From Sediminibacterium sp. (lineage in GTDB: Bacteria; Bacteroidota; Bacteroidia; B-17B0; Aurantibacillaceae): a DNA stretch of 64,000 bases. This document shows positions 7,961 to 27,027 of the stretch, piece by piece (the stretch's first letter is position 1; each line of letters opens with the position of its first letter). The stretch is taken from contig JASGCO010000020.1 in assembly GCA_030054095.1 (NCBI GenBank), positions 1 to 64,000 on the forward strand. Reading direction: 5' to 3'. Both the position numbers and the translations under genes were made by a program. The notes beneath the pieces were generated by a model. That model was not told the origin of the DNA. It searched no databases and saw nothing but the letters and a program-made list of their open reading frames with translations.

Positions 7961-8332
7961 ATGAAGATCAAATACGTGTTTGCAACGCTTATACTTATAA
8001 GTATAATCGGCTGCAAGAAAAAAATCAGCAATATAGATTATACTGCCAACTACAGTTGTAATGCAGCCACCCCCGGCTACGACAAAGACATTGCACCATT
8101 ACTGAACAATAGCTGCGCGTTTAATGGCTGCCATAATCAAACCTCTCATAAAGCCTTTGTCACCCTGTCAGATTTCGAAAATGCCAGATCGCAATTTCTT
8201 AATAATAAAAAAGTACTCATCTCTGTTCATCACGACCCGGGCGCTTCACCCATGCCTAAAGGGAGTAAACGACTGACAGAAGAGCAAATCAGGCAATTAG
8301 TCTGCTGGACAAAAAACAATTGTCCACGTTAG
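7961..8332 (+). CDS. cytochrome-c-like lipoprotein with a CX4CH motif
   Basis: A 123-residue lipoprotein: hydrophobic leader, lipobox ending at Cys18 (SIIGC) and a run of lysines. The mature part contains CAFNGCH, a CX4CH site instead of the usual CXXCH haem-attachment motif, plus a conserved-looking SPMPKGSKRLTEEQI segment and a C-terminal CWTKNNC pair. The spacing to a distal Met (PMPKG) and the LTEEQIRQL helix resemble cytochrome c-like folds annotated in Bacteroidota. It could bind haem atypically or a metal ion. It lies 89 bases after the small exported protein and 41 bases before the efflux pump gene, in the same direction, so it is probably part of the metal efflux operon. Confidence 0.65.
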   Translation: MKIKYVFATLILISIIGCKKKISNIDYTANYSCNAATPGYDKDIAPLLNNSCAFNGCHNQTSHKAFVTLSDFENARSQFLNNKKVLISVHHDPGASPMPKGSKRLTEEQIRQLVCWTKNNCPR

Positions 8333-8373
8333 AATTTAAAATACAAAAAACTAATTCAGATACTATTTACTAT

Positions 8374-11300
8374 ATGTTAAACTCAATTATAGACTTCTCA
8401 ATAAAAAATAAACTCATCATTGGCTTGTTTGTTTTTTTCCTTGTAGCTGTAGGAGCCTACCAGATCACCATACTCCCGATTGACGCAGTTCCCGATATTA
8501 CCAACAATCAGGTTCAGGTCATTACAAGCGCGCCATCTTATGGTGCTCCCGATATAGAACGCCTGGTTACTTTTCCGGTAGAACAAAACTGCAGTAACAT
8601 CTCCGGCAAAAAAGAAATTCGAAGCTTTTCCCGATTTGGACTATCGGTTGTTACCATTGTATTTAATGATGAGGTAGATATTTACTGGGCCAGGCAACAG
8701 GTAGCCGAACGCCTTCAACAAATCCGGAGCGAAATCCCCTCCGATATTAGCCCCCCTTATCTTGGCCCTATTTCTACTGGTTTAGGAGAAATTTACCAGT
8801 ATGTTGTGAAAGCGAAAAAAGGGTATGAAAAAAAATACGATGCCACCAGTCTTCGCACTATCCAGGACTGGATTGTACGACGCCAGCTTATGGGAGTAAA
8901 AGGCGTGGCAGAAATCAGCAGTTTTGGAGGAAAGCTGAAACAATATGAAATAGCCGTTGACCCCAATAAACTTAACGCCTATGGCATTAACATCAACGCT
9001 GTTTTTAACGCCCTTGAAACAAACAATGAAAATACCGGAGGTGCTTACATCGAAAAAGGCGCTTCTCTGCTTTACATCCGCAGCGAAGGGCTTTTAAAAA
9101 GTGAAGAAGACATAAAAAACATAGCTATCGCGCAAGGAAAAGGGACTGTTCCCTTGTTTATAAGAGACATAGCGGAAGTTCGTATCGGACATGCTATACG
9201 TTACGGCGCACTTTGTTACAATGATGAGGGCGAAGTAGCCGGTGCCGTTGTTATGATGTTGAAAGGCGCTAACAGTAGTGAGGTGATTAAAAATGTGAAA
9301 GCGCGAATAGAACAAATCCGGAAAACCCTGCCAGAAGGCGTAGAAATTGAAGCCTTTCTGGATCGCACAAAAATGGTGAATAATGCCATTGGTACTGTGG
9401 AAAAAAATCTTCTGGAGGGAGCGCTAATTGTCGTACTGGTATTGGTTCTTTTCCTCGGCAACCTGAGGGCCGGATTACTGGTAGCTTCTGTTATTCCGCT
9501 TTCTATGTTATTTGCGATCTGTATGATGAACCTGTTTGGTGTCAGTGGTAACCTCATGAGCCTCGGAGCACTTGATTTCGGTTTGATTGTTGACGGCGCG
9601 GTCATTATTGTTGAATCTGTAATGCACTACCTCGCTCACACCAGAAAGTTCAAACAAATCACTACACTCAGTAGCAGTCACATGGATGAGACAGTGGGGC
9701 ACTCTGCCAAAAAGATGATGAACAGTGCCGTATTCGGGCAGATTATCATCCTTATCGTTTACCTTCCCATCTTTTCACTTCAAGGCATAGAGGGAAAGAT
9801 GTTTAAACCCATGGCACAAACCGTTGCCTTCGCCTTAGTGGGGGCATTTCTATTATCCCTCACCTACATTCCGATGATGAGCGCTGTGGTCTTAAATTAT
9901 AAATCCAAATCAAACAACAATTTCTCCGACCGCATGATGGCCCAAGTTGAAAAGTGGTTCAGTTTTAAACTAATCCGTATCCTCCGCTATCCTAAAGTTA
10001 TACTGGGCAGTATCAGTCTTTTGTTTATTGCTTCTGTTATTACTATAACTCGCCTAGGCGGTGAATTTATTCCGGCATTGGAAGAAGGTGATTTTGCAGT
10101 AGATACAAGAGTTTTAACCGGCAGTAACCTGAATACAAGCATTCAATTCACACAAAAAGCGGCTCATGCCCTTAAAACCCAATTTCCGGAAGTAGAAAAA
10201 GTAGTCACTAAAATAGGTAGTGGCGAGGTTCCAACAGATCCTATGCCCATTGAAGCGAGTGATATGATGGTGATTCTGAAAGACAAATCCGAATGGACCT
10301 CTGCCAAAACCTTTCCTGAAATGGAAGAAAAAATGAGTAAGGCGCTGGAAGACATACCTGGTATCACGGCCGGTTTTATGTTTCCCGTTCAGATGCGTTT
10401 CAATGAATTGATGACCGGAGCCCGACAGGATGTAGTTTGCAAAATATTTGGGGAAAACCTGGATACACTTTCCACATACGCGGAGCAACTTGGAAAGATT
10501 GCAGGGAACATAAAAGGTGCTGAAAACATTTATGTAGAACCGGTTAATGGAATGCCTCAGGTTGTTATAGATTATAACCGATCGTTACTGGCACGCCATC
10601 ATTTATCGGTAGCGGAAGTTAATAAAGTTATTAATACCGCATTTGCCGGGCAAAGTTCGGGACTGCTTTTTGAAGATGAAAAACGATTTGATGTTGTAGT
10701 ACGCCTTGATACTAATTCCAGAAAAAACATAAACGATATCAAAAACCTGCTCATCCCTTCTGTTGATGGTATGCAAATACCCCTGCAAAATATAGCAAAC
10801 ATCACTATAAAAAATGGCGTTAATCAGATTCAACGTGAAGATGCCAAAAGAAGAATTGTTGTTGGATTTAACGTGGTTGGAAGAGATGTGGAAAGCATCG
10901 TGAATGAATTAAAACAAAAAACAGAAACACAAATCAAATTCCCCATCGGATATTACGTTACTTATGGGGGTGCTTTTCAAAATCTGGAAGAAGCCAAAAA
11001 CCGGCTGATGATAGCTGTGCCAGTATCCTTGCTGTTGATTTTTTTACTATTGTATTTTGCTTTTAAAAATCTTAAACAAGGTTTATTGATTTATACAGCT
11101 ATTCCTTTATCAGCTATAGGTGGCATTTTCTTCCTGGCCTTGCGCCAGATGCCATTCAGCATTAGCGCCGGTGTTGGATTCATTGCCTTATTCGGGGTCG
11201 CCGTTCTCAACGGCATTGTTCTTATCACCGAATTCAACCGTCTCCGTAACGAAGGTTGCGCTTCTATTGTACGAATTGTTATGAATGGTACACGGCTGCG

Positions 11301-12729
11301 CTTACGTCCGGTTCTTATGACTGCCTTTGTTGCCTCTTTAGGATTTTTACCTATGGCATTAAGCAATGGTGCTGGAGCAGAAGTACAACGGCCACTGGCC
11401 ACGGTGGTTATTGGCGGGCTGCTTATTGCCACTTTACTGACACTATTTGTATTGCCTCTACTGTATATGCTTGCTGAACGAAAAACCCTAAAAGAACGCA
11501 TACTATCTGGCAAATCAACTGTATTACTCATTTTCCTGCTATTTACTGGAATCATAAACTCACAAACTAAACTGGATTTACAGAGCGCCATTGATACCGC
11601 ACTGAAAAATAACCTTGTAGTTAAACAGGAGCAATTAAAATCGGCCTATAGTCAATCACTCATCAAAACAGCCGCTGATATTCCTAAAGCGACTATCAAC
11701 AGTGAGTTCGGGCAATACAACAGCAGTTATACCGACAACCGTTTTTCATTTACACAAAACATAGCTTTTCCCGTGGTCTATAAACGGCAAAAAGAATTGC
11801 TCACTTCTGAATACAATCAATCACAATGGTTAGTGAATTTAAAAACAACAGAACTCCGGAAAGAAGTAACAAAAACGTTTCTGTCTTACCAGTTACTAAA
11901 AAAACGTGAACAAATTCTGATTGTATCTGACTCGCTTTACCGGGATTTCTCTGCCATGGCTGAACTCCGGTTAAAAACCGGTGAATCAAATATACTTGAA
12001 AAGGTTACGGCCGAACAGCAGCAGACCGACATTCGTTTACAACTCAATGACCTCCGGCAGGAGCTCAAAATGGTAATGCTTCGTTTTCAGTTCTTACTGA
12101 ACAGCAAAACACCATTTCTGCCACGGGATCCCGAATCCGGTTCTATACTCTTGCTTTCTCCCGACACAATACACCTACAAACCAATCCCTTGTTAGAAGT
12201 GTATAAAACGCAGTCAGAGATTGAAAAAAACAGGATACGGCTTGAACGTGCCAAACTAGGTCCCGATTTAAGTTTTGGAGTAAGTAATACCACCATACGG
12301 GGCATGGGAGCTGATAACATAACTTATACCAGCAAAGACCGTTTTACCTCATTGCAACTTGGCGTAGCGCTTCCATTATTTCCCAAAGCACAGCGGGCAA
12401 GAATTCAGGGCAGTAGAACGATGATGCAGTTATGGAACAATGAAACTGAACTACTTAAAACCAAACAAAAACTAGAGATCAAACAACTCTTTTCCAGATA
12501 CGAGGCCCTTCGTGAAAGACTGAATTCTTACGAATCGAAAGGGCTAAACAATGCCCGTACCATACGTGAAACAGCGAACCGACAGTTTCGTAGTGGCGAA
12601 ATCAACTATCTGGACTATGTTGTATTACTTAACCAGGCGGTAAGCATCGAATCCCATTATATTGATACTCTGCAATTGCTGACCGACCTGGTTATACAAA
12701 TAAATTATTTCACTTACCCAACTAATTAA
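8374..12729 (+). CDS. heavy-metal RND efflux pump CzcA fused to a TolC-like domain
   Basis: A 1451-residue fusion. Residues 1-1040 are a heavy-metal RND (CusA/CzcA) proton antiporter with 12 TM helices and two large periplasmic loops. The TM4 proton-relay acidic residues are D401, D407 and E414, aligning with D402/D408/E415 of CzcA. The porter segment QMRFNELMTGAR is CzcA-like rather than CusA-like, so Co/Zn/Cd is favoured over Cu/Ag. Residues 1065-1451 are an outer-membrane efflux protein (TolC/CzcC family) joined through a hydrophobic stretch (about 1048-1064) that looks like a signal peptide ending NSQ. This architecture is known in Bacteroidota. ATG 8374 gives the standard MLNSIIDFSIKNK start. 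The adaptor gene follows after 4 bases. Confidence 0.93.
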   Translation: MLNSIIDFSIKNKLIIGLFVFFLVAVGAYQITILPIDAVPDITNNQVQVITSAPSYGAPDIERLVTFPVEQNCSNISGKKEIRSFSRFGLSVVTIVFNDEVDIYWARQQVAERLQQIRSEIPSDISPPYLGPISTGLGEIYQYVVKAKKGYEKKYDATSLRTIQDWIVRRQLMGVKGVAEISSFGGKLKQYEIAVDPNKLNAYGININAVFNALETNNENTGGAYIEKGASLLYIRSEGLLKSEEDIKNIAIAQGKGTVPLFIRDIAEVRIGHAIRYGALCYNDEGEVAGAVVMMLKGANSSEVIKNVKARIEQIRKTLPEGVEIEAFLDRTKMVNNAIGTVEKNLLEGALIVVLVLVLFLGNLRAGLLVASVIPLSMLFAICMMNLFGVSGNLMSLGALDFGLIVDGAVIIVESVMHYLAHTRKFKQITTLSSSHMDETVGHSAKKMMNSAVFGQIIILIVYLPIFSLQGIEGKMFKPMAQTVAFALVGAFLLSLTYIPMMSAVVLNYKSKSNNNFSDRMMAQVEKWFSFKLIRILRYPKVILGSISLLFIASVITITRLGGEFIPALEEGDFAVDTRVLTGSNLNTSIQFTQKAAHALKTQFPEVEKVVTKIGSGEVPTDPMPIEASDMMVILKDKSEWTSAKTFPEMEEKMSKALEDIPGITAGFMFPVQMRFNELMTGARQDVVCKIFGENLDTLSTYAEQLGKIAGNIKGAENIYVEPVNGMPQVVIDYNRSLLARHHLSVAEVNKVINTAFAGQSSGLLFEDEKRFDVVVRLDTNSRKNINDIKNLLIPSVDGMQIPLQNIANITIKNGVNQIQREDAKRRIVVGFNVVGRDVESIVNELKQKTETQIKFPIGYYVTYGGAFQNLEEAKNRLMIAVPVSLLLIFLLLYFAFKNLKQGLLIYTAIPLSAIGGIFFLALRQMPFSISAGVGFIALFGVAVLNGIVLITEFNRLRNEGCASIVRIVMNGTRLRLRPVLMTAFVASLGFLPMALSNGAGAEVQRPLATVVIGGLLIATLLTLFVLPLLYMLAERKTLKERILSGKSTVLLIFLLFTGIINSQTKLDLQSAIDTALKNNLVVKQEQLKSAYSQSLIKTAADIPKATINSEFGQYNSSYTDNRFSFTQNIAFPVVYKRQKELLTSEYNQSQWLVNLKTTELRKEVTKTFLSYQLLKKREQILIVSDSLYRDFSAMAELRLKTGESNILEKVTAEQQQTDIRLQLNDLRQELKMVMLRFQFLLNSKTPFLPRDPESGSILLLSPDTIHLQTNPLLEVYKTQSEIEKNRIRLERAKLGPDLSFGVSNTTIRGMGADNITYTSKDRFTSLQLGVALPLFPKAQRARIQGSRTMMQLWNNETELLKTKQKLEIKQLFSRYEALRERLNSYESKGLNNARTIRETANRQFRSGEINYLDYVVLLNQAVSIESHYIDTLQLLTDLVIQINYFTYPTN

Positions 12730-12733
12730 AACT

Positions 12734-13882
12734 ATGAAATCCATACTTTCCTTACAAAACGTTGTTTATCCCGTTATTTTTATGTGTTTAGTGAGTGCTT
12801 GCGAAAACGCTCCGTCAGATGTTGTCACAGAAACAGTAAAAGCCACTGAAGCCAATCTTTCACTTACGGATGCGCAGTTCCGTAATGCTGCCATAACCAC
12901 CACCACGTTGACAAAAGTCTCACTTGGCAAAACCCTTAAAGTAAATGGTCTTATTGATGTTCCGCCACAAAACCTTGTATCTATCAGTTGTCCCATGGGA
13001 GGGTATCTGAAAAGCACGAACCTGTTACCGGGTTATCCTATTAAAAAAGGAGAAACCATAGCCCAGGTAGAAGACCGCCAGTTTATAGAGCTGCAACAGG
13101 AATACCTTTTAAATCAGTCTAAACTCCAACTAGCCGAACAGGAGTATAACCGCCAAAAAGAGCTCAACCAGAATAAGGCCGGAAGTGATAAACTATTACA
13201 ACAAGCGGAAACGGAATGGCGCAATTATAAAATTCTGGTGGCCGCTCAGGCCGAGAAACTAAAACTGATCCATATTGATCCATTCCGCCTATCTGCACAA
13301 AACATCTCAAAAAGTATTTCCATTACCTCACCTATTGATGGTTTTGTATCAAAAGTAAATGCCAATATAGGGAAATACTTAAGCCCAACGGATGTCTTAT
13401 TCGAACTTGTTAATCCAAGCGATATTCATCTTAATCTGAAAGTATTTGAAAAAGATATTGCATCGCTTTACATCGGACAAAAAGTAATGGCTTATACCAA
13501 TATGGATGCCTCAAAAAAGTACCCTTGCGAAATCATCCTCATTAGTAAAGCCGTTAATCAGGAAGGTTATACCGAGGTACATTGTCACTTTGAATCTTAC
13601 GACCACTCTCTACTGCCCGGTTTGTATATGAATGCTGAAATTGATTATAGCACAGCAGAATCTTATGTTTTACCCGAAGAAGCCGTCGTACTTTTTGAAG
13701 GTAAAAGCTACATCTTTATACAAAATGATACTCTTAACTACCACATGTTCGAAGTACAAACCGGTCAAACAGGTAAGAATCAGGTGGAGATTCTAAATTA
13801 CCAATCGCTTCTAAACAAATCTATTGTGAAACAGGGTGCCTACACCTTGTTAATGAAATCCAGAAATAAAGAGGAAGAATAA
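12734..13882 (+). CDS. RND efflux periplasmic adaptor lipoprotein (CzcB/CusB-like)
   Basis: A 382-residue membrane-fusion protein linking the RND pump with its outer-membrane channel. The leader ends in a lipobox with Cys23 (LVSAC), so it is inner-membrane lipid-anchored. The order is beta-barrel, split lipoyl halves (ISCPMGGYL around residue 90 and ITSPIDGFVSKV around residue 200), an alpha-hairpin between them (about residues 115-175) and a C-terminal membrane-proximal domain. It starts 4 bases after the pump gene and completes the tripartite complex, because the TolC part is fused to the pump. No Met- or His-rich metal-binding N-terminal tail is visible. It is the last gene of the operon. 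Confidence 0.9.
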   Translation: MKSILSLQNVVYPVIFMCLVSACENAPSDVVTETVKATEANLSLTDAQFRNAAITTTTLTKVSLGKTLKVNGLIDVPPQNLVSISCPMGGYLKSTNLLPGYPIKKGETIAQVEDRQFIELQQEYLLNQSKLQLAEQEYNRQKELNQNKAGSDKLLQQAETEWRNYKILVAAQAEKLKLIHIDPFRLSAQNISKSISITSPIDGFVSKVNANIGKYLSPTDVLFELVNPSDIHLNLKVFEKDIASLYIGQKVMAYTNMDASKKYPCEIILISKAVNQEGYTEVHCHFESYDHSLLPGLYMNAEIDYSTAESYVLPEEAVVLFEGKSYIFIQNDTLNYHMFEVQTGQTGKNQVEILNYQSLLNKSIVKQGAYTLLMKSRNKEEE

Positions 13883-14357: not shown

Positions 14358-16463
14358 ATGAAAATAGTAGTACTACTTAAAAAATTGCTTTTTATAGCCA
14401 GCATTTGTATTTGTTGTTCGCTTAATTTAAACGCGTTTAGTCCCCCCATACCGATTACCTTGCTCGATGTAAGTGCCCGAAATTCTGAAACAGATGACGC
14501 AGAAGTTTGCTCTGCCCGGCACGTATTGAAAGTATGTGGAACGCCTTTTTCAGAAACCACGTCATTTCTCACCGCTATTCAATCAAAAATAATTGTGGTT
14601 TCCAGTAAAATGGAGCCATTCACATTCAGTAGCGCGGAAAAAGACAGCCTTGTCTCGTTTGTCAGAAAAGGAGGTATTCTTATTTGTCCTAATGTACGAG
14701 ATCCGTTTATGCATACACTTTTTGGTTTGTCGGGAGGTACTAATGCCAATAATCTCTATAGTATTACGTTCAACACCTTCCTGAACGATCCGGTTTTCAG
14801 ATGGCTTGACGACTCACTTGAAAAAACCATTAGCCTTGGCAGCAGCACCTTTACGTCGGTTATTAACAGCCGATACTATACTCCCACAACTGCCCTCTCT
14901 CTAGCCAAGTACAATAACACCAAAGATGCCATTACCTGTAATACCTTTTCAGTAGGTTACGCGTATGCCATTGGTGTTTCCTTTAAAAATATTATTCTCC
15001 TGAACCAACAAAACAGAGATTTTAATGCCAACAGATATTACAGTAATGATTTTGAACCAACCTCCGACGCGTTTATACTTTTTTTAAAAGGCATTATTCT
15101 AAAACACCTTCCTGTTATTCCTTACCTGCACACCAGTCTGTTCAATAGTAAAGCGTCTGTTCTTATTACCCATGATGTTGACGCCACTTCCGCATTCGAC
15201 ACTATGTCGCACTACAGTTTATACGAGCAATCCATTGGCGTCAAGGCATCGTATTACATTACAACACATTATATAAACGATGGCGCACTCAGTGATTTTT
15301 ATAATGTGTTTACCATTCCAAAAGTAAACCAGTTACTTACCAACGGACATATTTTGGGTAGTCATTCCGTTGGACATTTTATTGATTTTGCGGACGAGTC
15401 TGTATTCCCTTTAGGTACACCCGGCAATACCCCTTCTAATTACCTGCCCTACAACCATGGAAATTCGTCTCCTACTTTAAACGGAACTGTTTTTGGAGAA
15501 ACCGAAGTGTCCCGGGATCTGCTCAATACCAATTTTGGCATACAAATTAAAACATTCCGGCCGGGATACCTTGCCTTTAATAACAAACTCATTAACGCGT
15601 TGGAGTTGTTGAATTACAAATTCAGTTCTTCAGTTAGTGCCAACGATGTTCTTACCAACTTTCCATATCAATGTAAAAAAGACAATACGTCGTACGGATC
15701 CCTAACTAAAATATGGGAAATTCCTATGACCATATCCGATGCCGCCGCTTCTGATCCTATTACTCCCGCTAACTACCCCCAAAAAGTACTTAAATGGCTT
15801 TCCGTTGTACAGAAAAATAAAAACAATAATGCCCCCACCACCCTTCTCGTTCATCCTAACCGGTTATTTAAATTGGCGGCTCAGCGTGATTTCATCAGCG
15901 GGCTATCTTCAGATATAATGGTAACCAATCTTGAAACGTACGGCGAATTCTGGCAACAAAGAGATAGTCTTAATTTTTCGTTTACCCTTCGTAACGACAG
16001 CCTCACCATCATTATTCCCAACCAACAATTACCATTGCCTCCTGCCATCAGCTTCATCGTTAATAAAGGACAACAACTTTCCCATATCAGCCTGAAAAGC
16101 GAAGGTGGCCTTAACATTCCTGTCATGCAGGGTAATTGGGAGCAAAACGATAAAATTCTTTACTTTCAAAATGCTCCTGTTGTAGGCTTAAACGAATGGA
16201 TCTATTCGCCCAACAGATCGCTGCTGGTATATCCAAATCCCTGTACAGATAAAAGTGTTGTTTCTACAGGATCAAACATCTATCAGAAAATTAACTGCGA
16301 ATTATATACTCTTGGTGGTCAACTTATTGAGCAAATCTGCGCGGAATCAACCGATCACGTAATCATTGAAAAACGGAATTATCAGGGGCTCTATTGTGTA
16401 AAACTGTATGGTGACGGGATTTACCTTGGCACCACTAAACTACTTTTTAAAGATCGTTATTAA
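14358..16463 (+). CDS. T9SS-sorted polysaccharide deacetylase with GATase-like N-domain
   Basis: A 701-residue exported protein opening the exopolysaccharide operon. A signal peptide covers residues 1-27. Residues 30-255 form a domain with a VRKGGILICPN segment like class I glutamine-amidotransferase/ThuA-like folds, without an obvious catalytic Cys. Residues 265-530 are a NodB/CE4-type deacetylase: motif 1 THDVD (H272, D273, D275), motif 2 HSVGH (H336, H340), motif 3 RPGYL (R401). Residues 610-701 are a type IX sorting domain beginning at LLVYPNP. It is likely to deacetylate amino-sugar residues of a secreted polymer at the cell surface, as PgaB, PelA and IcaB do in other systems. Its 3' end overlaps the next gene by 56 bases. 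The N-terminal domain role is unknown. Confidence 0.8.
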   Translation: MKIVVLLKKLLFIASICICCSLNLNAFSPPIPITLLDVSARNSETDDAEVCSARHVLKVCGTPFSETTSFLTAIQSKIIVVSSKMEPFTFSSAEKDSLVSFVRKGGILICPNVRDPFMHTLFGLSGGTNANNLYSITFNTFLNDPVFRWLDDSLEKTISLGSSTFTSVINSRYYTPTTALSLAKYNNTKDAITCNTFSVGYAYAIGVSFKNIILLNQQNRDFNANRYYSNDFEPTSDAFILFLKGIILKHLPVIPYLHTSLFNSKASVLITHDVDATSAFDTMSHYSLYEQSIGVKASYYITTHYINDGALSDFYNVFTIPKVNQLLTNGHILGSHSVGHFIDFADESVFPLGTPGNTPSNYLPYNHGNSSPTLNGTVFGETEVSRDLLNTNFGIQIKTFRPGYLAFNNKLINALELLNYKFSSSVSANDVLTNFPYQCKKDNTSYGSLTKIWEIPMTISDAAASDPITPANYPQKVLKWLSVVQKNKNNNAPTTLLVHPNRLFKLAAQRDFISGLSSDIMVTNLETYGEFWQQRDSLNFSFTLRNDSLTIIIPNQQLPLPPAISFIVNKGQQLSHISLKSEGGLNIPVMQGNWEQNDKILYFQNAPVVGLNEWIYSPNRSLLVYPNPCTDKSVVSTGSNIYQKINCELYTLGGQLIEQICAESTDHVIIEKRNYQGLYCVKLYGDGIYLGTTKLLFKDRY

Positions 16464-18615
16464 ACAAATTACTTACATATTCACTTTTGTCTTTTTTAGC
16501 GCTTCTTTGATGGCGCAAAATACAGACCGGTTAGACACCCTTGTTTCTTCCTATATTGAACGCCTGACGCAACTATGGAACGAAAATAAAAATCATAATT
16601 TTTCCGGATGTATTACAGACCCGTACGCGGAAACTTCAGACAGACAATTTCCAGGACAATACAAACAGTCCGTTCTATCATCTGATAACGGGAAACAGTT
16701 TTTACTACTAAAACGAAATCAACTACGCCAAAGCATTTTAAAAAAAGACTACGGATTTAGCTTAAACGGTGGGTATCAGGAAAATTTAAGCGCCCCTTTC
16801 GTATCTCCTGACGAAGCGTTGGTTTTCAGGCGAAAATTCAGTATTGGCGTGGACTGGGATCTTTTAAAGGGTGGCTTACTCGATAATAAGAACGCCATAA
16901 AAAAATTACAACAGGAACGCATTCAACTGGACGCGGCTCGTCAACACAAGCATATAAGTCAATCTACTTTAGCCCACTACAGTTTCATTATACAAAATTT
17001 TAACCGGCTTAAACTTTCAATTATACGGTTCAGAATTAAAATGATGCAACAACAAAACGACATCGCCCGTCAGTTATGGGTTTTAAAGCAAATTACCGGC
17101 GACGCGTTTCTTACATCAAACCGACATTTAACCGATAGCCGCTCACAGTATTATCTTTTCGACACCTACAACAAAGACTTTTCGCTGCTTCGGAATGACT
17201 CCATAAACACAATTGTTCCCTTTTTAGCTGATATAGACTATGGCCGTTTACTAAGAGCAACGGACAGCATTACAGAATTAAACCGCCAGGGCGACGTAAC
17301 GACTCAGGCCCTACCTCAGTACAAATACCACTATTACGAAGACATCAGCCTAAAAGCATACACACGTTACAATTATTACGATGTATTTAATCCAGGAAAT
17401 CAACCACGTAATTTTATCTCGCTTGGCCTTAACTTTTCTGCCCCCCTGCGCGGAGGTTTAAAAGAACGTAGTGAACTGGAGGCCATTAATAACCAGTTAA
17501 ACCACACCTCTACCGAAGAAATAAATACCATAAAAGCACATAATCAGTATTACCTGTTAAACTTACTTTACGAATACAGAACCAAACTAAAGAACTATCT
17601 GGTACTCCTTGAAAAACGGAAAGAACAGGAAGAGCGCATCAGAATTGAATCTGTTAAGGAAAGACTGGGAGATTTAGAATTTAATCCAAATACTGCCATT
17701 TACATTCTTGACGATTACTGGAGTAATACCGTTGAATTACTGGAAATTCATCAGCAAATGTTCAGAATTTTACTCAATATACAGGAACAGGTACCAGCTA
17801 TCGAATTATCCCATTTTATGACACCCCTTTCCTATACCCAAACCTCAGCTCAGGTTCCTGAGCAGGGGGAACGCTATCTTTACATCTGGAGCAAAACCTT
17901 CGAAAAACACACTACGTCCTTTATCTATGACTACATTCACCTTAACCAATTTACCCATCTGTTAGTATCCTATAAAAATGACAAAGACTATCTTAAAACA
18001 CTAAACTCCTTCGCCACCACCCTGCATAAACAGACGACAGTTCCGGTTCATTTAATGCTTGGTCAAAATAAATTACTATATGGTGGCGTAAAAGAACTAC
18101 TAGACAGTTTACAATCCGGGGTAAATCTTAAAATCATAAAAGGCCTTCATTTGGATATTGAGCCACACACACAATCAGGTTTTAAAGACAATAAAGAAAA
18201 GTACTTTCAACTCTACTTGCAGTTAGTAAATACCGTTAGCGCCTTCTGCAATGAAAACAATTTATCCTTGTCCGTTTCCATTCCTCTACATTATCCCGAA
18301 GAGGTCATTCAACCCGTTTTTAAACTCTGCCAGCGCGTGATGTTGATGGCTTATGAAAACGTGGATCCGGACTTCATTTCTAAAAAAACAAAAGAAGAAA
18401 CAAGTATTTCTTCTGAAAAAACCGTTCTTGCCCTAAGAGCTAAAGACTTTAGTTCCCGCGATCAGCAAGAAATAGCGTTTAAGAAAATTGGCATTAAAAA
18501 CAAAGCTTACCACGATTTGGAAACACTTCTGGTACTTGACCGGGAAAGTTCACATCTACCTGAGTCCTCTCCGGTCGACACTAAACAACAAAAGCCTTCG
18601 GAAAACAAGAAATGA
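16408..18615 (+). CDS. TolC-like outer-membrane protein fused to a GH18-like barrel
   Basis: A 735-residue protein. A signal peptide ends at SASLMAQ (about residue 37). Residues 45-470 resemble TolC-type channels: two long helical regions separated by amphipathic strands (GFSLNGGYQENL, ISLGLNFSAPLRGG). Residues 490-715 look like a TIM-barrel hydrolase with GH18-type signatures: GLHLDIEPH with D583 and E585 in a DxE arrangement, SVSIPLHY, and MAYE at 647-650. The start is the ATG 16408 inside the preceding gene; no other in-frame start precedes the signal core. It ends with an ATGA overlap with the HlyD-like gene. It probably forms the export channel and trims or holds the polymer. A channel-hydrolase fusion like this is unfamiliar to me. 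Confidence 0.75.
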   Translation: MVTGFTLAPLNYFLKIVIKQITYIFTFVFFSASLMAQNTDRLDTLVSSYIERLTQLWNENKNHNFSGCITDPYAETSDRQFPGQYKQSVLSSDNGKQFLLLKRNQLRQSILKKDYGFSLNGGYQENLSAPFVSPDEALVFRRKFSIGVDWDLLKGGLLDNKNAIKKLQQERIQLDAARQHKHISQSTLAHYSFIIQNFNRLKLSIIRFRIKMMQQQNDIARQLWVLKQITGDAFLTSNRHLTDSRSQYYLFDTYNKDFSLLRNDSINTIVPFLADIDYGRLLRATDSITELNRQGDVTTQALPQYKYHYYEDISLKAYTRYNYYDVFNPGNQPRNFISLGLNFSAPLRGGLKERSELEAINNQLNHTSTEEINTIKAHNQYYLLNLLYEYRTKLKNYLVLLEKRKEQEERIRIESVKERLGDLEFNPNTAIYILDDYWSNTVELLEIHQQMFRILLNIQEQVPAIELSHFMTPLSYTQTSAQVPEQGERYLYIWSKTFEKHTTSFIYDYIHLNQFTHLLVSYKNDKDYLKTLNSFATTLHKQTTVPVHLMLGQNKLLYGGVKELLDSLQSGVNLKIIKGLHLDIEPHTQSGFKDNKEKYFQLYLQLVNTVSAFCNENNLSLSVSIPLHYPEEVIQPVFKLCQRVMLMAYENVDPDFISKKTKEETSISSEKTVLALRAKDFSSRDQQEIAFKKIGIKNKAYHDLETLLVLDRESSHLPESSPVDTKQQKPSENKK

Positions 18616-19739
18616 AAAGTATAAACTTCCAAAGAAATAAATCCCTGATCAGGATCATCAACGAAAAAAAAATCAGGGTTAAGCGCAACTGGGACAGGAT
18701 GCTTTACATTACACTATTGTGCTCATTCGTACTATTTCTGATTTACTACGCGGGCAAAAAACTGCTTTATGTACACGCCAACGGTCAGGTAGTAATTGAA
18801 AGTTCACGCATCCGGCTAACCAACGACGCGCGCATTATTGATTTTTATGTTCAGGAAGGCGATAGCGTAAAAAGAAATGACACACTCTTTTCCTACGCGG
18901 TAAATATAGGCCGAGAGCATGGAGAGGGGCTTACCTACGGCATAAACGGAGAAAGCAGTGGCGAATCGAAAGACCTTTGGCACCTTAAGGAAACCTACAA
19001 TCTAAAAAAATCCATTGCTATCAATAAAACACGAATCCTGAAAAACGAACAACTAATCAAAACATACAATCAGGACATAAAACGGTTAAGCAATGAAGTC
19101 ATTCTGGATGTTCTTCCTAAAAACAGACTGGAACTTCTTCAAAATGACATCATCAAATTAAGCATGGAAAACGAACAGCTTAATGAAGAAAATAAAACAT
19201 TTCTTGAGTTAATCAATACCATTGAACCGCTCCCCGCAAAAAGCACTTATAAATCCAGAATAAAACACAATGTAAAAGACCATCGCCCTTCTTCTGTACC
19301 TATAACAATTTCATCTACCCAAAAACTCACCTTTACCGATGAGGTACTCTCAGATGAAAAATACTTCAGATCTCCCATGGAAGGGGTTATTACGCGCATA
19401 TACATTCACGCTTTGGAAACAGCTCTCAAATCGGAGGAAATTCTCAGTATTCACCGTGGGCATCCGGCATATATTAAAACTTTTTTCGACCAAAAGGATT
19501 TGAAACACTTTAAAATCGGAGATGTTTTTGAACTCAAATTTCCAGATGGTACTGTATCGCAAGGTATATTAAAACGGTTCTATATTGCCACTTATCAAAT
19601 TCCCGAAGAGTTTCAACAAAAGTACGAACCTACTAACCGAACCATAGCGGGTGATATATTTCCCCTCACTGAAGAGGACCTGATGAAGTGGAAGATTTTT
19701 AACAAGATGAGTGTAAACGTAACCAAATTAATATTCTGA
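18612..19739 (+). CDS. HlyD-family membrane-fusion protein
   Basis: A 375-residue inner-membrane protein with one N-terminal TM helix (about residues 29-48) after a basic cytoplasmic segment, then a periplasmic adaptor: first lipoyl half (ARIIDFYVQEGDSVKRNDTLF, about 75-95), a coiled-coil hairpin (about 125-195), second lipoyl half (FRSPMEGVITRIYI, about 250) and a beta-barrel. It would bridge the GT2 synthase or inner membrane to the TolC-like channel. Its start codon overlaps the stop of the previous gene (ATGA), and the next gene begins immediately after its stop, which indicates translational coupling. Pel and alginate systems use other periplasmic scaffolds, so an HlyD adaptor here is notable. 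Confidence 0.82.
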   Translation: MKSINFQRNKSLIRIINEKKIRVKRNWDRMLYITLLCSFVLFLIYYAGKKLLYVHANGQVVIESSRIRLTNDARIIDFYVQEGDSVKRNDTLFSYAVNIGREHGEGLTYGINGESSGESKDLWHLKETYNLKKSIAINKTRILKNEQLIKTYNQDIKRLSNEVILDVLPKNRLELLQNDIIKLSMENEQLNEENKTFLELINTIEPLPAKSTYKSRIKHNVKDHRPSSVPITISSTQKLTFTDEVLSDEKYFRSPMEGVITRIYIHALETALKSEEILSIHRGHPAYIKTFFDQKDLKHFKIGDVFELKFPDGTVSQGILKRFYIATYQIPEEFQQKYEPTNRTIAGDIFPLTEEDLMKWKIFNKMSVNVTKLIF

Positions 19740-21176
19740 ATGAAGGCGACAGCAACATTAAAATTCAAAGAAAACATCCTGAAATGGGACAATGCTGCTT
19801 TCTATCTTATTGATAAGGATAGCTATGCCAGACCAGAGCAACTTATGGACTACGATGCCGTAATTATAGATGCCTCTGATCAGGAATATACCAGGCTACT
19901 GTTAAGAAGATTTAGGGCACATCATAACAGTTCACTCTACCTAAAACCCATTTATCTGGTTAATTATAAAGAACAAACCGACGTATTTATTAATGAGCTG
20001 ATTGATGGTATCATTTACTTTCCTGAACAAATTACAGAGAAAATAAACGAAATATCAGAATTAAAACAGAGAATTACCCATTTAGATACCGACCCGGGGC
20101 ACACCTTTGAATCACAACTAATAAAAAAAGTACTGGCCTTTCTTTATACACGCGAGAAAAAATCCATTAAACCACTTCCCTATGTATATTCCTCTATTGG
20201 CTATACCTATCCTGTTCTATCGGTCAATTTTGAACCATTTGAAGAATTCAGGGTACTAGATATTCTATCCTGGGCAGAAAACGAAAATATCATCTGGCCC
20301 GACTTTGTTGACCGTGTTTACTTCTGTAATAATTGTAAAAATGGTCATTTGGTTTACCGCGAGATCTGCCCATCTTGCGACTCGGCCAATATTAAATCGC
20401 AGGATCTGATCCATCATTTTCCATGCGGGTATATAGGTCCGGTTTCCGATTTCAGGAATACCATTGACAGTACGATGAACTGTCCCAAATGTTCTAAAAA
20501 TCTCCGCCACATTGGAGTAGATTATGATAAACCCTCTATCATAAACCACTGTCAGAATTGCAACGAAGTTTTTCAGGATTATATTGTAAAAGCAAAATGC
20601 ATCCATTGCAAACACGATACTGATGTTCAGTACTTACTGGCCAAAGACATTAACGCCTATAAACTGACTAAAAAGGGCCGCCATGCCGCCACCTCTGGTT
20701 TTATAGGAGAGCGGAATGAAAAAGAAGATGAAATATTCGGTGCGGTTAATCAGAAAACGTTCCAAACCATGTTGTACTACGAAACGGAAAGAGTAAAACA
20801 CAACATATCCGCCAACATTCAACTGTGCGGCCTTCAACTGGAGAACATTTTCGACCTTACCAGAAAGTTCGGAAAATCGAAAGAAAAGGCGTTTCTTACC
20901 GAATTGGTTCAAATTATAAGAGAGCAGATAAAAACAATGGATTTCATCAATATCACTAATCCCTCTATGATTTTAATCTGTATGGCAGATAGTTCACCTG
21001 AAACTGCCAATGAATTGATGCAACGGATTTCTGATAAAATAAAAGACTTGATTGCCAACAATTTTAATGGGTTTTCAATTGTTACCGAATTTAAAACAGA
21101 ATCATTAAAGAAAGACATTTCCTTTGAAAAGCAAATACACAACTTAAGCACCTTCCTCGTTCAATCTAATGACTGA
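19740..21176 (+). CDS. TackOD1 zinc-ribbon protein with degenerate GGDEF domain
   Basis: A 478-residue cytoplasmic protein. Residues 1-110 resemble a degenerate receiver domain. Residues 190-300 match my recollection of the TackOD1 metal-binding output domain: C196-NN-C199, CPSC, IHHFPCG, CPKC, LRHIGVDYDKP, CQNC, then CIHC. Residues 330-475 have the length and helix-strand pattern of a diguanylate-cyclase domain but no GGDEF signature, so catalysis is unlikely; it may bind c-di-GMP or another ligand. It sits between the HlyD-like gene (directly abutting) and the GT2 gene (8-base overlap), so a regulatory role over polymer synthesis is the simplest reading. Domain identity is fairly confident; function is inferred. 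Confidence 0.75.
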   Translation: MKATATLKFKENILKWDNAAFYLIDKDSYARPEQLMDYDAVIIDASDQEYTRLLLRRFRAHHNSSLYLKPIYLVNYKEQTDVFINELIDGIIYFPEQITEKINEISELKQRITHLDTDPGHTFESQLIKKVLAFLYTREKKSIKPLPYVYSSIGYTYPVLSVNFEPFEEFRVLDILSWAENENIIWPDFVDRVYFCNNCKNGHLVYREICPSCDSANIKSQDLIHHFPCGYIGPVSDFRNTIDSTMNCPKCSKNLRHIGVDYDKPSIINHCQNCNEVFQDYIVKAKCIHCKHDTDVQYLLAKDINAYKLTKKGRHAATSGFIGERNEKEDEIFGAVNQKTFQTMLYYETERVKHNISANIQLCGLQLENIFDLTRKFGKSKEKAFLTELVQIIREQIKTMDFINITNPSMILICMADSSPETANELMQRISDKIKDLIANNFNGFSIVTEFKTESLKKDISFEKQIHNLSTFLVQSND

Positions 21177-22479
21177 ATTCGTTGATAATTTTTTCAACTA
21201 TATTGCTTCAGTAGGACTGAGTAAGTTGGTACGTGTATTCTGGTTTTTTGTTTTTTTCGAATTCATCCGCTTTTTTCTGTTTGAACTGATTGTTCTTGTT
21301 ATCTGGAAACTTGGAGAAAAAAAACGAAAATTAAAATACAACAAAGGCAGGGAAAGGCTTTTTATAGAACGTCCGCTTATATCGGTAATTGTTCCCGGAA
21401 AAAACGAAGGAAAACACATTTACAAGCTTACAAAATCACTTAAAGAACAAACCTACAAACATTTTGAACTGATTGTGATAGATGACGGTTCGGATGATGA
21501 TACTGAAACCATTTGCAAAGGATTAAAAAAAGCAGGTGTTATTGATCTCTTTCTCAGAAACGATGTAAGAGGTGGAAAAGCTTCGGCGGCTAACCTCGGG
21601 TACCGGTTCGCGAAAGGTAAAATAATTGTGCATCTCGATGCGGATTGCAGTTACGATTCTGACGCGATCGAAAAAATTATTATTCCATTTTATACCGATC
21701 GCAAAATAGGCGCTGTAGGAGGTAATGTAATGGTTCGGAATTACAAAGCCAGTTTATGTACAACACTGCAAGCCATTGAATACGCTAATTCTATTTCGAT
21801 AGGGCGCGTTACATCCAGTTCGCTGGGCATTTACCGGGTAGTATCCGGCGCGTTTGGCGCGTTCCGAAAAGATGCTATTGACCGCATTGGGGGATGGGAT
21901 ATTGGCCCTGGACTGGATGGCGACATTACTGTAAAACTCAGAAAAATTGGTTATAAAATTGTTTTTGAACCAGATGCTGTATGCCAGACCAGCACTCCCG
22001 ACACCTTCAAAAAACTTGTCAAGCAACGTTTACGCTGGGATAAATCCATCATTCGTTTCCGTTTGCGCAAACACCGCGATGTATTTTACCCAAATGCGCA
22101 ATTCACCTTCTCTAATTTTTTTGCTTCGCTCGAAAACATAACTTACAATCTGGTGCTCAATCTAAAATGGTGGGTGTATATTGCGGATATCTTTTTCAAT
22201 TTTTTCAATCAGCTCAAATTCATCTTCTCCTTTAATTTTATGCTTTACACGTTCACATCTTTTATTAAGTTCACCATTTTTTCGCTTTTCCGAAACCGAA
22301 AAAATGAATCCGTCACTTATTTTTTACTCTATATCCCCTGCATGTTTTTATATTTTGGCCTATTTCTACGGATTGTACGCACGATTGCGTACACACAAGA
22401 ATTTTTCTTTAAAAAGTCATACGAAGATCCATGGAACCCACAAAAATCCTCTCAACATGCTAAAGAACTGGGGTTATAA
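21169..22479 (+). CDS. processive GT2 glycosyltransferase (PgaC/BcsA-like)
   Basis: A 436-residue membrane glycosyltransferase. N-terminal TM helices (about residues 18-45), a cytosolic GT2 domain, and C-terminal TM helices (about 330-415). Catalytic landmarks: D105-D106 in VIDDGS, the DxD D157-A-D159 in HLDAD, acidic D250/D252 in GLDGDIT in the place of the usual ED base motif, and Q286-RLRW (QxxRW). These features define processive synthases such as cellulose, hyaluronan and poly-GlcNAc synthases. It overlaps the TackOD1 gene by 8 bases and ends the operon. The polymer cannot be deduced from the sequence; the deacetylase partner points to an N-acetylated sugar. It converges on pheT with an 18-base gap. 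Confidence 0.88.
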   Translation: MTEFVDNFFNYIASVGLSKLVRVFWFFVFFEFIRFFLFELIVLVIWKLGEKKRKLKYNKGRERLFIERPLISVIVPGKNEGKHIYKLTKSLKEQTYKHFELIVIDDGSDDDTETICKGLKKAGVIDLFLRNDVRGGKASAANLGYRFAKGKIIVHLDADCSYDSDAIEKIIIPFYTDRKIGAVGGNVMVRNYKASLCTTLQAIEYANSISIGRVTSSSLGIYRVVSGAFGAFRKDAIDRIGGWDIGPGLDGDITVKLRKIGYKIVFEPDAVCQTSTPDTFKKLVKQRLRWDKSIIRFRLRKHRDVFYPNAQFTFSNFFASLENITYNLVLNLKWWVYIADIFFNFFNQLKFIFSFNFMLYTFTSFIKFTIFSLFRNRKNESVTYFLLYIPCMFLYFGLFLRIVRTIAYTQEFFFKKSYEDPWNPQKSSQHAKELGL

Positions 22480-24963: not shown

Positions 24964-27027
24964 TTACTCTATAACTACTTTTTTTATTATTTTCTGCTCT
25001 CTGTATTTAACATTAACAAAATACACCCCTCTGTTTAATAAACGCGTATCAATTGCTATTTCTTCCGTTGTCAATGCAACCGGAGCCATCACTATACGAC
25101 CGGTAACATCCATGATTTGCACGGTACAAGATTCTGTTAAAGGTGATAAAAACGTAACATTTACAAGGGAAGTTGCCGGGTTAGGGCTAATCACTACCTG
25201 CGAAGGATCGAGACGGTTCTCCGCTACAGCAACTCCTCCATTTCCTACATTTATATCATCGAGGTAAAAGTTATTTCCTGCTCCATTTACCGCATCAACC
25301 GTATATTCAAAACGGAAATACACCTCTGTGCCAGCGGATAGATTCAAGGGCAATGTATTTGTTGTCCACTGTGACGCCTGAGGAACAAACGCCCCATTTG
25401 CAAACGGCGCATTCCCTGCTGCCAGAACCGAACCTGATTTATTAAATAACACCACCCAGTTTTGACCGCAGTTGGTAGAATACAAAACCCTTAAACGATC
25501 AGAATTAGTTGCAAACTGTGGGGCATAAGCATATTTGAATTGCAGGTTCAGGTTTACAGTATTTGTAATAAGATAGGCTGGTGTAAACATATTCACCACC
25601 TCACTTGGATTATCTCCAAAATTATTGATATAAACGCACGAACTGCCCGTTGCTGCGGCAAGGTTCGTTTTAGCATATCCCGACCCATACTGAGGCAGAG
25701 AGGCAAACCAACGTGAATCAGGGAACTGCACACTCTCAAAACTCTCTGTTACATTTGTTGTAGCGGAGTTTACACCATTTGCCATAACATATATGGTATT
25801 TTTGGTAATGGAGTCGCTGCCAAACGAATTACTAACTTTTAGTTTCACCGATACCTGCCCGGAGTTGGTAAATGTCAACTGGCCATTTTGTGAGATAACC
25901 GGTTGCTGCGCAGCAGGACTGGTCCATTGCCAGGACGTAATGCTACCGTTATAACTCGCGTCCAGAAAAGAAAGCGCCTGACCTGTGCAGGTAATGCTGT
26001 TCGTAATTACATATTCCGCTTTAGGTGCGCAATTTGACAAAGGATTAATGACACCGGTTGCTATCAGATTCGCGTTTGTCCAGATATTATTTCTTAATCC
26101 ATTAGAATTATTCAGAGCAGCTTGCATACGGGTTGCCTGACCTTGCGTAAACATGGTACTGCAAAATGAATACTCCATGTAATTCTGAACATTTTCTATT
26201 ACCCCGGCAGAACAGGATGCTGCGCTGAGATTACACCAGCTATTCCCCTTGGTAACCGGGGTATCGCTTACCCCATCATCCCCACAAGCCTGTCCCGGAT
26301 TATTATTACTTCCCCATACATGAGCCAGATTAAGCCAGTGTCCTACCTCATGCGTAAGAGAACGGGATCCAAAAGAGGAAGCTGTTCCAATTGATCCCAC
26401 ATAATTATGAAGGATCACAATCCCATCCATTCCTAAAGGTACCGCCCCCGGATAAAAGGAATAGCCGGCTACACCCGGATCGAGTGCTTTAACCACATAA
26501 ATGTTCAGGTATTTATTAGCGGGCCACTGAAACTTATAATTACTTTGGTTAGGACTCCCCCAGTTGGTCACCGCATCATAATGCCGTGTTATACCGTTGG
26601 TACAATTCCCCTGAGGATCCTTTGTTGCCAAAGCAAAATGGATATCTGTTTTAGCCGCAATGGGTTTAAATACGGCAATAGTATTCATTGTATCCGCGTT
26701 TTGTTTAGAATAATCACGGTTCAGAATATTGACCGCGTCTTTAACCTGCGCGTCGCTTATGTTTTCATTTCCACCAAGATGCACTACATGAAACACTACC
26801 GGAATGGTATAGCTTACTGCGGCTGTTCGGGCATACTGATTTATAGACGCTGTTTTATCAGTCATCTGTGCCGCATCCAAAAGGGCCTGTACTCTTTGTC
26901 TGGCTGAAGGATCCTGGCGGTATAACCACTCTAAGGCTTCTGTTGTTCCACAATGATGATTTGGTTCCTGAGCAAATATCCCGAAACACAAAAACAATAA
27001 GGCTACTGCCAAAAGGGGAGCGCGCAT
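24964..27027 (-). CDS. M43-family zinc metalloprotease with T9SS sorting domain
   Basis: A 687-residue secreted protease. Signal peptide ends CFGIFAQ. The catalytic domain (about residues 65-320) has the extended zinc site H226-EVGH-WLNLA-H236 and a NYMEYSFC Met-turn, as in pappalysin/cytophagalysin M43 proteases. A PKD-like domain follows (about 340-420), then a jelly-roll region resembling MAM or CUB-like carbohydrate-binding modules (about 430-600), and a type A T9SS sorting domain (from VISPNPATS to the end). It is expected to be exported through the type IX pathway and anchored or released by PorU, which is encoded about 10 kb away. Confidence 0.9.
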   Translation of the reverse strand: MRAPLLAVALLFLCFGIFAQEPNHHCGTTEALEWLYRQDPSARQRVQALLDAAQMTDKTASINQYARTAAVSYTIPVVFHVVHLGGNENISDAQVKDAVNILNRDYSKQNADTMNTIAVFKPIAAKTDIHFALATKDPQGNCTNGITRHYDAVTNWGSPNQSNYKFQWPANKYLNIYVVKALDPGVAGYSFYPGAVPLGMDGIVILHNYVGSIGTASSFGSRSLTHEVGHWLNLAHVWGSNNNPGQACGDDGVSDTPVTKGNSWCNLSAASCSAGVIENVQNYMEYSFCSTMFTQGQATRMQAALNNSNGLRNNIWTNANLIATGVINPLSNCAPKAEYVITNSITCTGQALSFLDASYNGSITSWQWTSPAAQQPVISQNGQLTFTNSGQVSVKLKVSNSFGSDSITKNTIYVMANGVNSATTNVTESFESVQFPDSRWFASLPQYGSGYAKTNLAAATGSSCVYINNFGDNPSEVVNMFTPAYLITNTVNLNLQFKYAYAPQFATNSDRLRVLYSTNCGQNWVVLFNKSGSVLAAGNAPFANGAFVPQASQWTTNTLPLNLSAGTEVYFRFEYTVDAVNGAGNNFYLDDINVGNGGVAVAENRLDPSQVVISPNPATSLVNVTFLSPLTESCTVQIMDVTGRIVMAPVALTTEEIAIDTRLLNRGVYFVNVKYREQKIIKKVVIE

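Follow-up and report, generated by a model that had tools for sequence, protein, structure and literature searches.

A TackOD1-linked GT2-HlyD-TolC operon conserved in Bacteroidota, probably an exopolysaccharide machine related to Mxd

What is made by a locus that sets genes for a secreted deacetylase, an outer-membrane channel, a periplasmic adaptor, a regulator and a glycosyltransferase side by side, and does it belong to a system already known? The five genes lie in the window, the whole stretch of 64,000 nucleotides of Sediminibacterium sp. DNA that was analysed (contig JASGCO010000020.1). A preliminary description had read them as one exopolysaccharide locus, and the positions that it gave were exact for all five open reading frames and all four junctions (a 56-base overlap, a 4-base overlap, a direct abutment and an 8-base overlap). 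The features are as follows.

14358-16463, + strand: T9SS-sorted CE4-type polysaccharide deacetylase, 701 aa (Pfam Polysacc_deac_1, TIGR04183)
16408-18615, + strand: TolC-type outer-membrane channel with a C-terminal glycosidase-like (beta/alpha)8 barrel (OEP, AlphaFold model, Foldseek)
18612-19739, + strand: HlyD/EmrA-type periplasmic adaptor with one N-terminal membrane span (TIGR01843, 2.2e-6)
19740-21176, + strand: cytoplasmic regulator made of a degenerate receiver-like part, TackOD1 and a degenerate GGDEF domain (TackOD1, 1.7e-53)
about 19740-20084, + strand: degenerate receiver-like part of the regulator
20115-20666, + strand: TackOD1 zinc ribbon of the regulator
about 20727-21164, + strand: degenerate GGDEF domain of the regulator
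21169-22479, + strand: processive membrane GT2 polysaccharide synthase, 436 aa (Pfam/NCBIfam, invariant catalytic residues)

Upstream, an RND/MFP efflux locus (8320-13882) is set apart from the five genes by a gap of 475 bp; downstream lies pheT, converging. The efflux locus begins with an ORF for an RND pump of the heavy-metal type (1469 aa, 8320-12729) that apparently continues in frame into a CzcC-like outer-membrane efflux part (a pump-channel fusion, if that is what it is, would be unusual), followed by a CzcB-like adaptor (12734-13882). Past pheT, on the reverse strand, 24964-27027 encodes a likely T9SS-secreted zinc metallopeptidase with the motif HEVGHWLNLAHVWG and a sorting-type tail.

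Are the five genes a unit? A scan of genome contigs yielded 316 relatives, and 80 of them were retrieved; 90 distinct loci were left after the removal of duplicates, and 62 of these have enough flank (at least 5.5 kb upstream and at least 1.4 kb downstream). All four genes for the outer-membrane factor, HlyD, TackOD1 and GT2 are present, in this order and on the same strand, in 62/62 of the Bacteroidota loci with enough flank; when less flank is required, all 81 loci that reach far enough have GT2 downstream of TackOD1, and HlyD lies upstream in 86/86. Median gaps between the core genes are 1, 3 and -1 bp, and most gaps are 50 bp or less. The channel, the HlyD adaptor, the TackOD1 regulator and the GT2 are a fixed unit, beyond chance, and to this extent the single coupled unit of the preliminary description stands. 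That five genes travel as one block does not hold: the core is four, and the deacetylase adjoins it in only about 11 of the 90 loci (the window and ten others). Co-occurrence in relatives, on which the preliminary description had staked its case, was found, with the deacetylase usually unlinked. The TackOD1 gene itself is present in 19 of 100 related genomes and, above cut-off, in 12 of 396 genomes of the phylum.

Other genes accompany the unit in places. Directly 3' of the GT2, about 18 of the 80 loci carry a T9SS-tailed CotH-kinase/lamin-tail/chitobiase-like protein (e.g. L119:8471-11551 and L031:12267-14912), possibly a surface modifier of the polymer. In one lineage (L057-L060) a UDP-sugar 6-dehydrogenase is encoded between HlyD and TackOD1 (7256-8623 in L057), a hint of a uronic-acid polymer there, and three of these four loci also have a large lipoprotein in the same interval (DUF4114 in L058).

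The second gene matches OEP (2.1e-6) over its channel part (about 16495-17832). Its AlphaFold model (mean pLDDT 83.5) shows two beta-hairpins and long helices, as in a TolC protomer, and Foldseek against the PDB returns TolC, OprM and CusC at about 1e-11, so that the TolC-like channel proposed earlier is borne out. The remainder (about 17872-18549; residues 489-701 of the model) consists of eight alternating strands and helices, which is a TIM barrel, and generic TIM barrels are returned at about 1e-5. The C-terminus of the channel, and hence the barrel, is presumably periplasmic, given the topology of TolC. D583, E585, M647, Y649, D680 and D703 are invariant in 71/71 homologues that have the barrel, and these six residues resemble a working active site; the domain looks like a barrel with a putative glycosidase active site, of no fixed family. 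The more specific GH18-like assignment made earlier is a weak one: Pfam GH18 matches 2 of 40 members, below cut-off, and of the complete DxxDxDxE motif only D-x-E and MxYE-like residues are kept, with no family-level match. The outer-membrane factors of some distant relatives (L057-L060, L064) are without the barrel. A glycosidase-like domain fused to a channel would, if functional, be an unusual part of an export machinery.

The third gene encodes an adaptor of the HlyD/EmrA/MacA type, with a TIGR01843 match (2.2e-6) and a single hydrophobic segment (residues 27-54). HlyD_3 is matched by 31 of 38 members of its family, and the family profile matches the structures of EmrA, MacA and HlyD, which upholds the HlyD-like label.

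The regulator matches TackOD1 at 1.7e-53 with all Cys pairs invariant, and its model (pLDDT 88) ends in a GGDEF fold. An active diguanylate cyclase was rejected, as the GG(D/E)EF motif is found in 0 of 34 family members. The Asp of the inhibitory site is kept in 33 of the 34. As regards a possible binding of c-di-GMP, at the I-site residue R398 the window protein has Lys and 12 of 34 Bacteroidota members have Arg, and RxxD is kept in three gammaproteobacterial members. Both domains of the earlier TackOD1/degenerate-GGDEF label are there, and the protein is better described as receiver-like, TackOD1 and degenerate GGDEF. Relatives have a genuine Response_reg domain fused to TackOD1. A stand-alone gene (about 110 aa) resembling the regulator's degenerate receiver-like part in the window occurs in L061-L063 and L065-L067 (10617-10946 in L061), where it precedes a TackOD1 protein with its own genuine receiver domain. 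TackOD1 (PF18551) was first reported in response regulators of archaea and at loci for type IV pili, with an obscure function (PMC5847659, the only paper found in a literature search on the domain); all its Cys pairs are kept in the window regulator, but here it is tied to GT2 and HlyD, unlike in the archaeal and pilus contexts. The operon suggests a role for this orphan zinc domain in the control of polysaccharide synthases.

The catalytic part of the GT2 (about 21373-22056) has D106, D157/D159, D250/D252 and Q286..R289 W290 invariant in 35 homologues, and this pattern of D, DxD, DxD and QxxRW supports a processive enzyme. Its best NCBIfam model is PgaC_IcaA, yet it falls 235 bits under the cut-off of that model, and it shares only 27% identity with PgaC of E. 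coli. In a tree of 30 GT2 sequences, including PgaC, IcaA and others, the bacterial TackOD1-linked enzymes form one clade (100/99), apart from PgaC/IcaA. An S. medicae sequence (L171), entered as an outgroup row, falls inside this clade and has HlyD and a TackOD1 fragment next to its GT2. When the window GT2 was compared with all plasmids, the nine best records were nine TackOD1-linked GT2s. In the Pfam and NCBIfam scans, a marginal CelA match (3.8e-6) was the nearest to any of the PelFG, Alg8/44/K/E or BcsAB families of the Pel, alginate and Bcs cellulose systems.

How does the deacetylase fit in? Its NodB-like domain (about 15165-15977) matches Polysacc_deac_1 at E 1.1e-5, above cut-off, and has the metal-binding and catalytic motifs of CE4: the HDxD, HSxxH, R and LxHP columns (H272/D273/D275, H336/H340, R401, H499/P500) are invariant in eight homologues. 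The T9SS type A tail (about 16227-16418) scores 23.6 bits with TIGR04183, for which the cut-off is 23, and its Pfam match is below cut-off; PF18962 is matched by the tails of 8/8 aligned family members, and SprA, of the T9SS translocon, is encoded in the window's genome. The 56-base overlap with the channel gene is not conserved (L026 has a gap of 193 bp). Where a homologue adjoins the unit (counted at E < 1e-100), it does so in four different positions: 5' of it (L073, L074, L083), just 3' (L109, L131, L142, L149), two genes 3' (L101, L106) or inside it (L125). In the 100 related genomes, a full-length homologue (E < 1e-200) is present in 17 of 19 with TackOD1 vs 1 of 81 without (Fisher p 4.5e-16, a value that ignores relatedness), the exceptions being G003 (93% complete, 200 contigs), G031 (73% complete) and G054 (78% complete). 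Within the window's genus presence and absence alternate, and the counts are 11/13 for genomes with TackOD1 and 0/27 for those without. Among more distant TackOD1-bearing genomes, on the other hand, it is found in 2 of 11 and missing from 9, which makes the deacetylase a lineage-restricted partner and not part of the core. Its phylogenetic profile marks it as a real partner whose gene mostly lies elsewhere in the genome, and its functional association with the unit, as first proposed, is retained.

The association of TackOD1 with a synthase extends beyond Bacteroidota. Plasmids of alpha- and gammaproteobacteria and of haloarchaea also encode TackOD1 proteins, as a tblastn search showed. TackOD1, GT2 and HlyD follow each other in that order in 11 proteobacterial loci (L151-L154, L156-L161, L166); in L155, TackOD1 and GT2 are followed by the end of the record. 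Most proteobacterial loci are without a dedicated channel gene, and in a Methylocystis locus a TolC gene lies two genes further on. Relatives in Plesiomonas, Aeromonas and Photobacterium have TackOD1 with a GGDEF-like domain. In two Rhodobacterales plasmids galE directly follows the three genes (L151:11580-12590, L159:9579-10589), a hint of a galactose-type precursor there. On a haloarchaeal (Halorussus) plasmid, TackOD1, a deacetylase-like DUF2334 gene and GT2 are adjacent (L163:5950-8911). This GT2 falls outside the bacterial TackOD1-linked clade in the 30-sequence tree, and at four of the five haloarchaeal plasmid TackOD1 loci no glycosyltransferase neighbour was found; for these reasons a common origin with the haloarchaea is not claimed, and L163 is possibly an independent pairing of TackOD1 with a synthase.

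How would such a machine work? The locus probably encodes an Mxd-type machine for synthase-dependent exopolysaccharide production, with a GT2-HlyD-TolC conduit, a barrel, a surface deacetylase and a TackOD1 switch. From the observed gene content, conservation, domain folds, active-site residues and co-occurrence, the following course can be inferred. The GT2 would polymerise a sugar at the inner membrane (probably an N-acetylhexosamine, by family resemblance) and push the growing polymer through to the periplasmic side. The HlyD-type adaptor would couple the synthase to the dedicated TolC-type channel, giving a tripartite conduit in which the synthase stands in for an ABC or RND pump. At the channel mouth, the barrel may trim or clear the polymer, by analogy with PgaB, PelA and AlgL, and the T9SS-sorted deacetylase would remove acetyl groups from it on the cell surface. 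The receiver-like/TackOD1/degenerate-GGDEF protein may act as a cytoplasmic effector that switches the synthase, in response to any ligand that it might bind.

Other readings of the locus differ widely in their merit. Are the five genes simply unrelated neighbours between an RND metal pump and pheT? An efflux locus does lie directly upstream, but the 475 bp gap and the retention of the core four in every one of the 62 loci, in other genomes with different flanking genes, leave this idea with practically no credibility; a link to the RND locus was rejected on the same grounds, and chance proximity is refuted for the core four. It is very unlikely that the product of the GT2 is a lipid-linked or short glycan or a decoration, while HlyD and TolC export another substrate. 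Neither a pump ATPase nor an RND gene is present in the unit, and the sequence therefore does not tell what the channel carries; against this reading stand the QxxRW motif and the membrane topology of processive synthases, the polymer-acting nature of both barrel and deacetylase, and the fixed presence of GT2 and HlyD in the same unit in two phyla.

A divergent PNAG system of the Pga type, in which the GT2 would be PgaC, the deacetylase and barrel a split PgaB, the TolC channel a substitute for PgaA and the TackOD1 protein one for PgaD, has more in its favor and is still unlikely. PgaC_IcaA is the best model of the GT2, and it is accompanied by both a deacetylase and a glycosidase-like barrel, as in PgaB, which joins deacetylation and hydrolysis in the periplasm (PMC5933820); in the Bacteroidota unit these activities would be separated, hydrolysis residing in the channel's barrel and deacetylation in an enzyme outside the cell. 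The unit thus has in common with PgaABCD/IcaADBC a broadly similar processive GT2, a CE4 deacetylase and a glycosidase-like domain, but the TPR/beta-barrel PgaA, the fused PgaB and PgaD are absent from it, and its GT2 belongs to another clade. BLAST and profile comparisons of the other unit genes with E. coli PgaA, PgaB and PgaD gave no similarity, which argues that the unit is not Pga, and the deacetylase is predicted to be on the outer surface and is often absent. Membership in Pga was therefore rejected on the clade and sub-threshold score of the GT2, the lack of similarity to PgaA and PgaB, and the TolC-like channel; the earlier view that TolC/HlyD components take the place of a TPR/porin exporter is supported.

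Is the Mxd-type machine preferred here then a system of its own, as the preliminary description had it? It is coherent and lies outside Pga, but there are precedents for sending a GT2-made polymer along a TolC/HlyD route, and the closest systems had been missed. Literature searches on the gene set, and on a T9SS deacetylase with PgaC, found no prior description, nor any experimental work on these genes in Bacteroidota; neither Bacteroidota nor HlyD nor TolC is named in a bacteria-wide survey of synthase-dependent operons (PMC7112194). A GT2 with an HlyD-type adaptor is known or proposed in Mxd (PMC3691769, PMC7666153), BgsA/BgsB (PMC7902896) and XcsA/XcsB/TolC (PMC12430437). The rhizobial BgsA/BgsB system makes a mixed-linkage glucan with a GT2 and a membrane fusion protein, as here, under c-di-GMP control (PMC7902896), but no TackOD1 protein, dedicated TolC or deacetylase is described for it (PMC7902896, PMC7997180). 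The cyanobacterial Xcs cellulose route, proposed but unvalidated (2025 review, PMC12430437), likewise has a GT2 synthase, an HlyD-like adaptor and a TolC-like channel; its synthase has PilZ and its genes are scattered and not in one operon, whereas a single operon supplies all three in the Bacteroidota unit, where TackOD1 takes the place of PilZ. The proposed GT2-HlyD-TolC polysaccharide route would thereby gain a compact operon form, testable by gene deletion.

The closest likeness is to Shewanella oneidensis mxdABCD, a biofilm machinery under c-di-GMP control, which has the same kinds of gene in the same order. Its effector, MxdA, responds to c-di-GMP and is a binding partner of the receiver protein CheY3; MxdB is the membrane GT2, and MxdC, the efflux-type adaptor, is homologous to efflux pumps. 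The mxd mutants form flat biofilms that have lost their three-dimensional structure (PMC7666153, PMC3691769, PMC11395469). Genes for the effector, the GT2 and the HlyD-type adaptor are contiguous in the 62 Bacteroidota and the 11 proteobacterial loci, and the operon is most likely a relative of Mxd, as judged by gene order and published descriptions. No equivalent of mxdD was seen at the Bacteroidota unit. The receiver input, provided in trans by CheY3 in Mxd, is here a fused receiver or receiver-like domain, and the Bacteroidota operon differs further in its own TolC-barrel fusion, its co-occurring T9SS deacetylase and its order (OMF, HlyD, TackOD1, GT2). The dedicated TolC-barrel fusion, the in-trans T9SS deacetylase and a likely role for TackOD1 are what is new in it. 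A broader proposal, with the balance tilted somewhat against it, is that TackOD1 is a dedicated switch of GT2 synthases across bacteria and possibly archaea, from which Bacteroidota made a self-contained tripartite exporter with a glycosidase on its channel and a surface deacetylase delivered by T9SS. What emerges is a conserved and apparently undescribed system of the biofilm type, which hundreds of Bacteroidota genomes carry and which is most like Mxd, with a conduit like that of Xcs.
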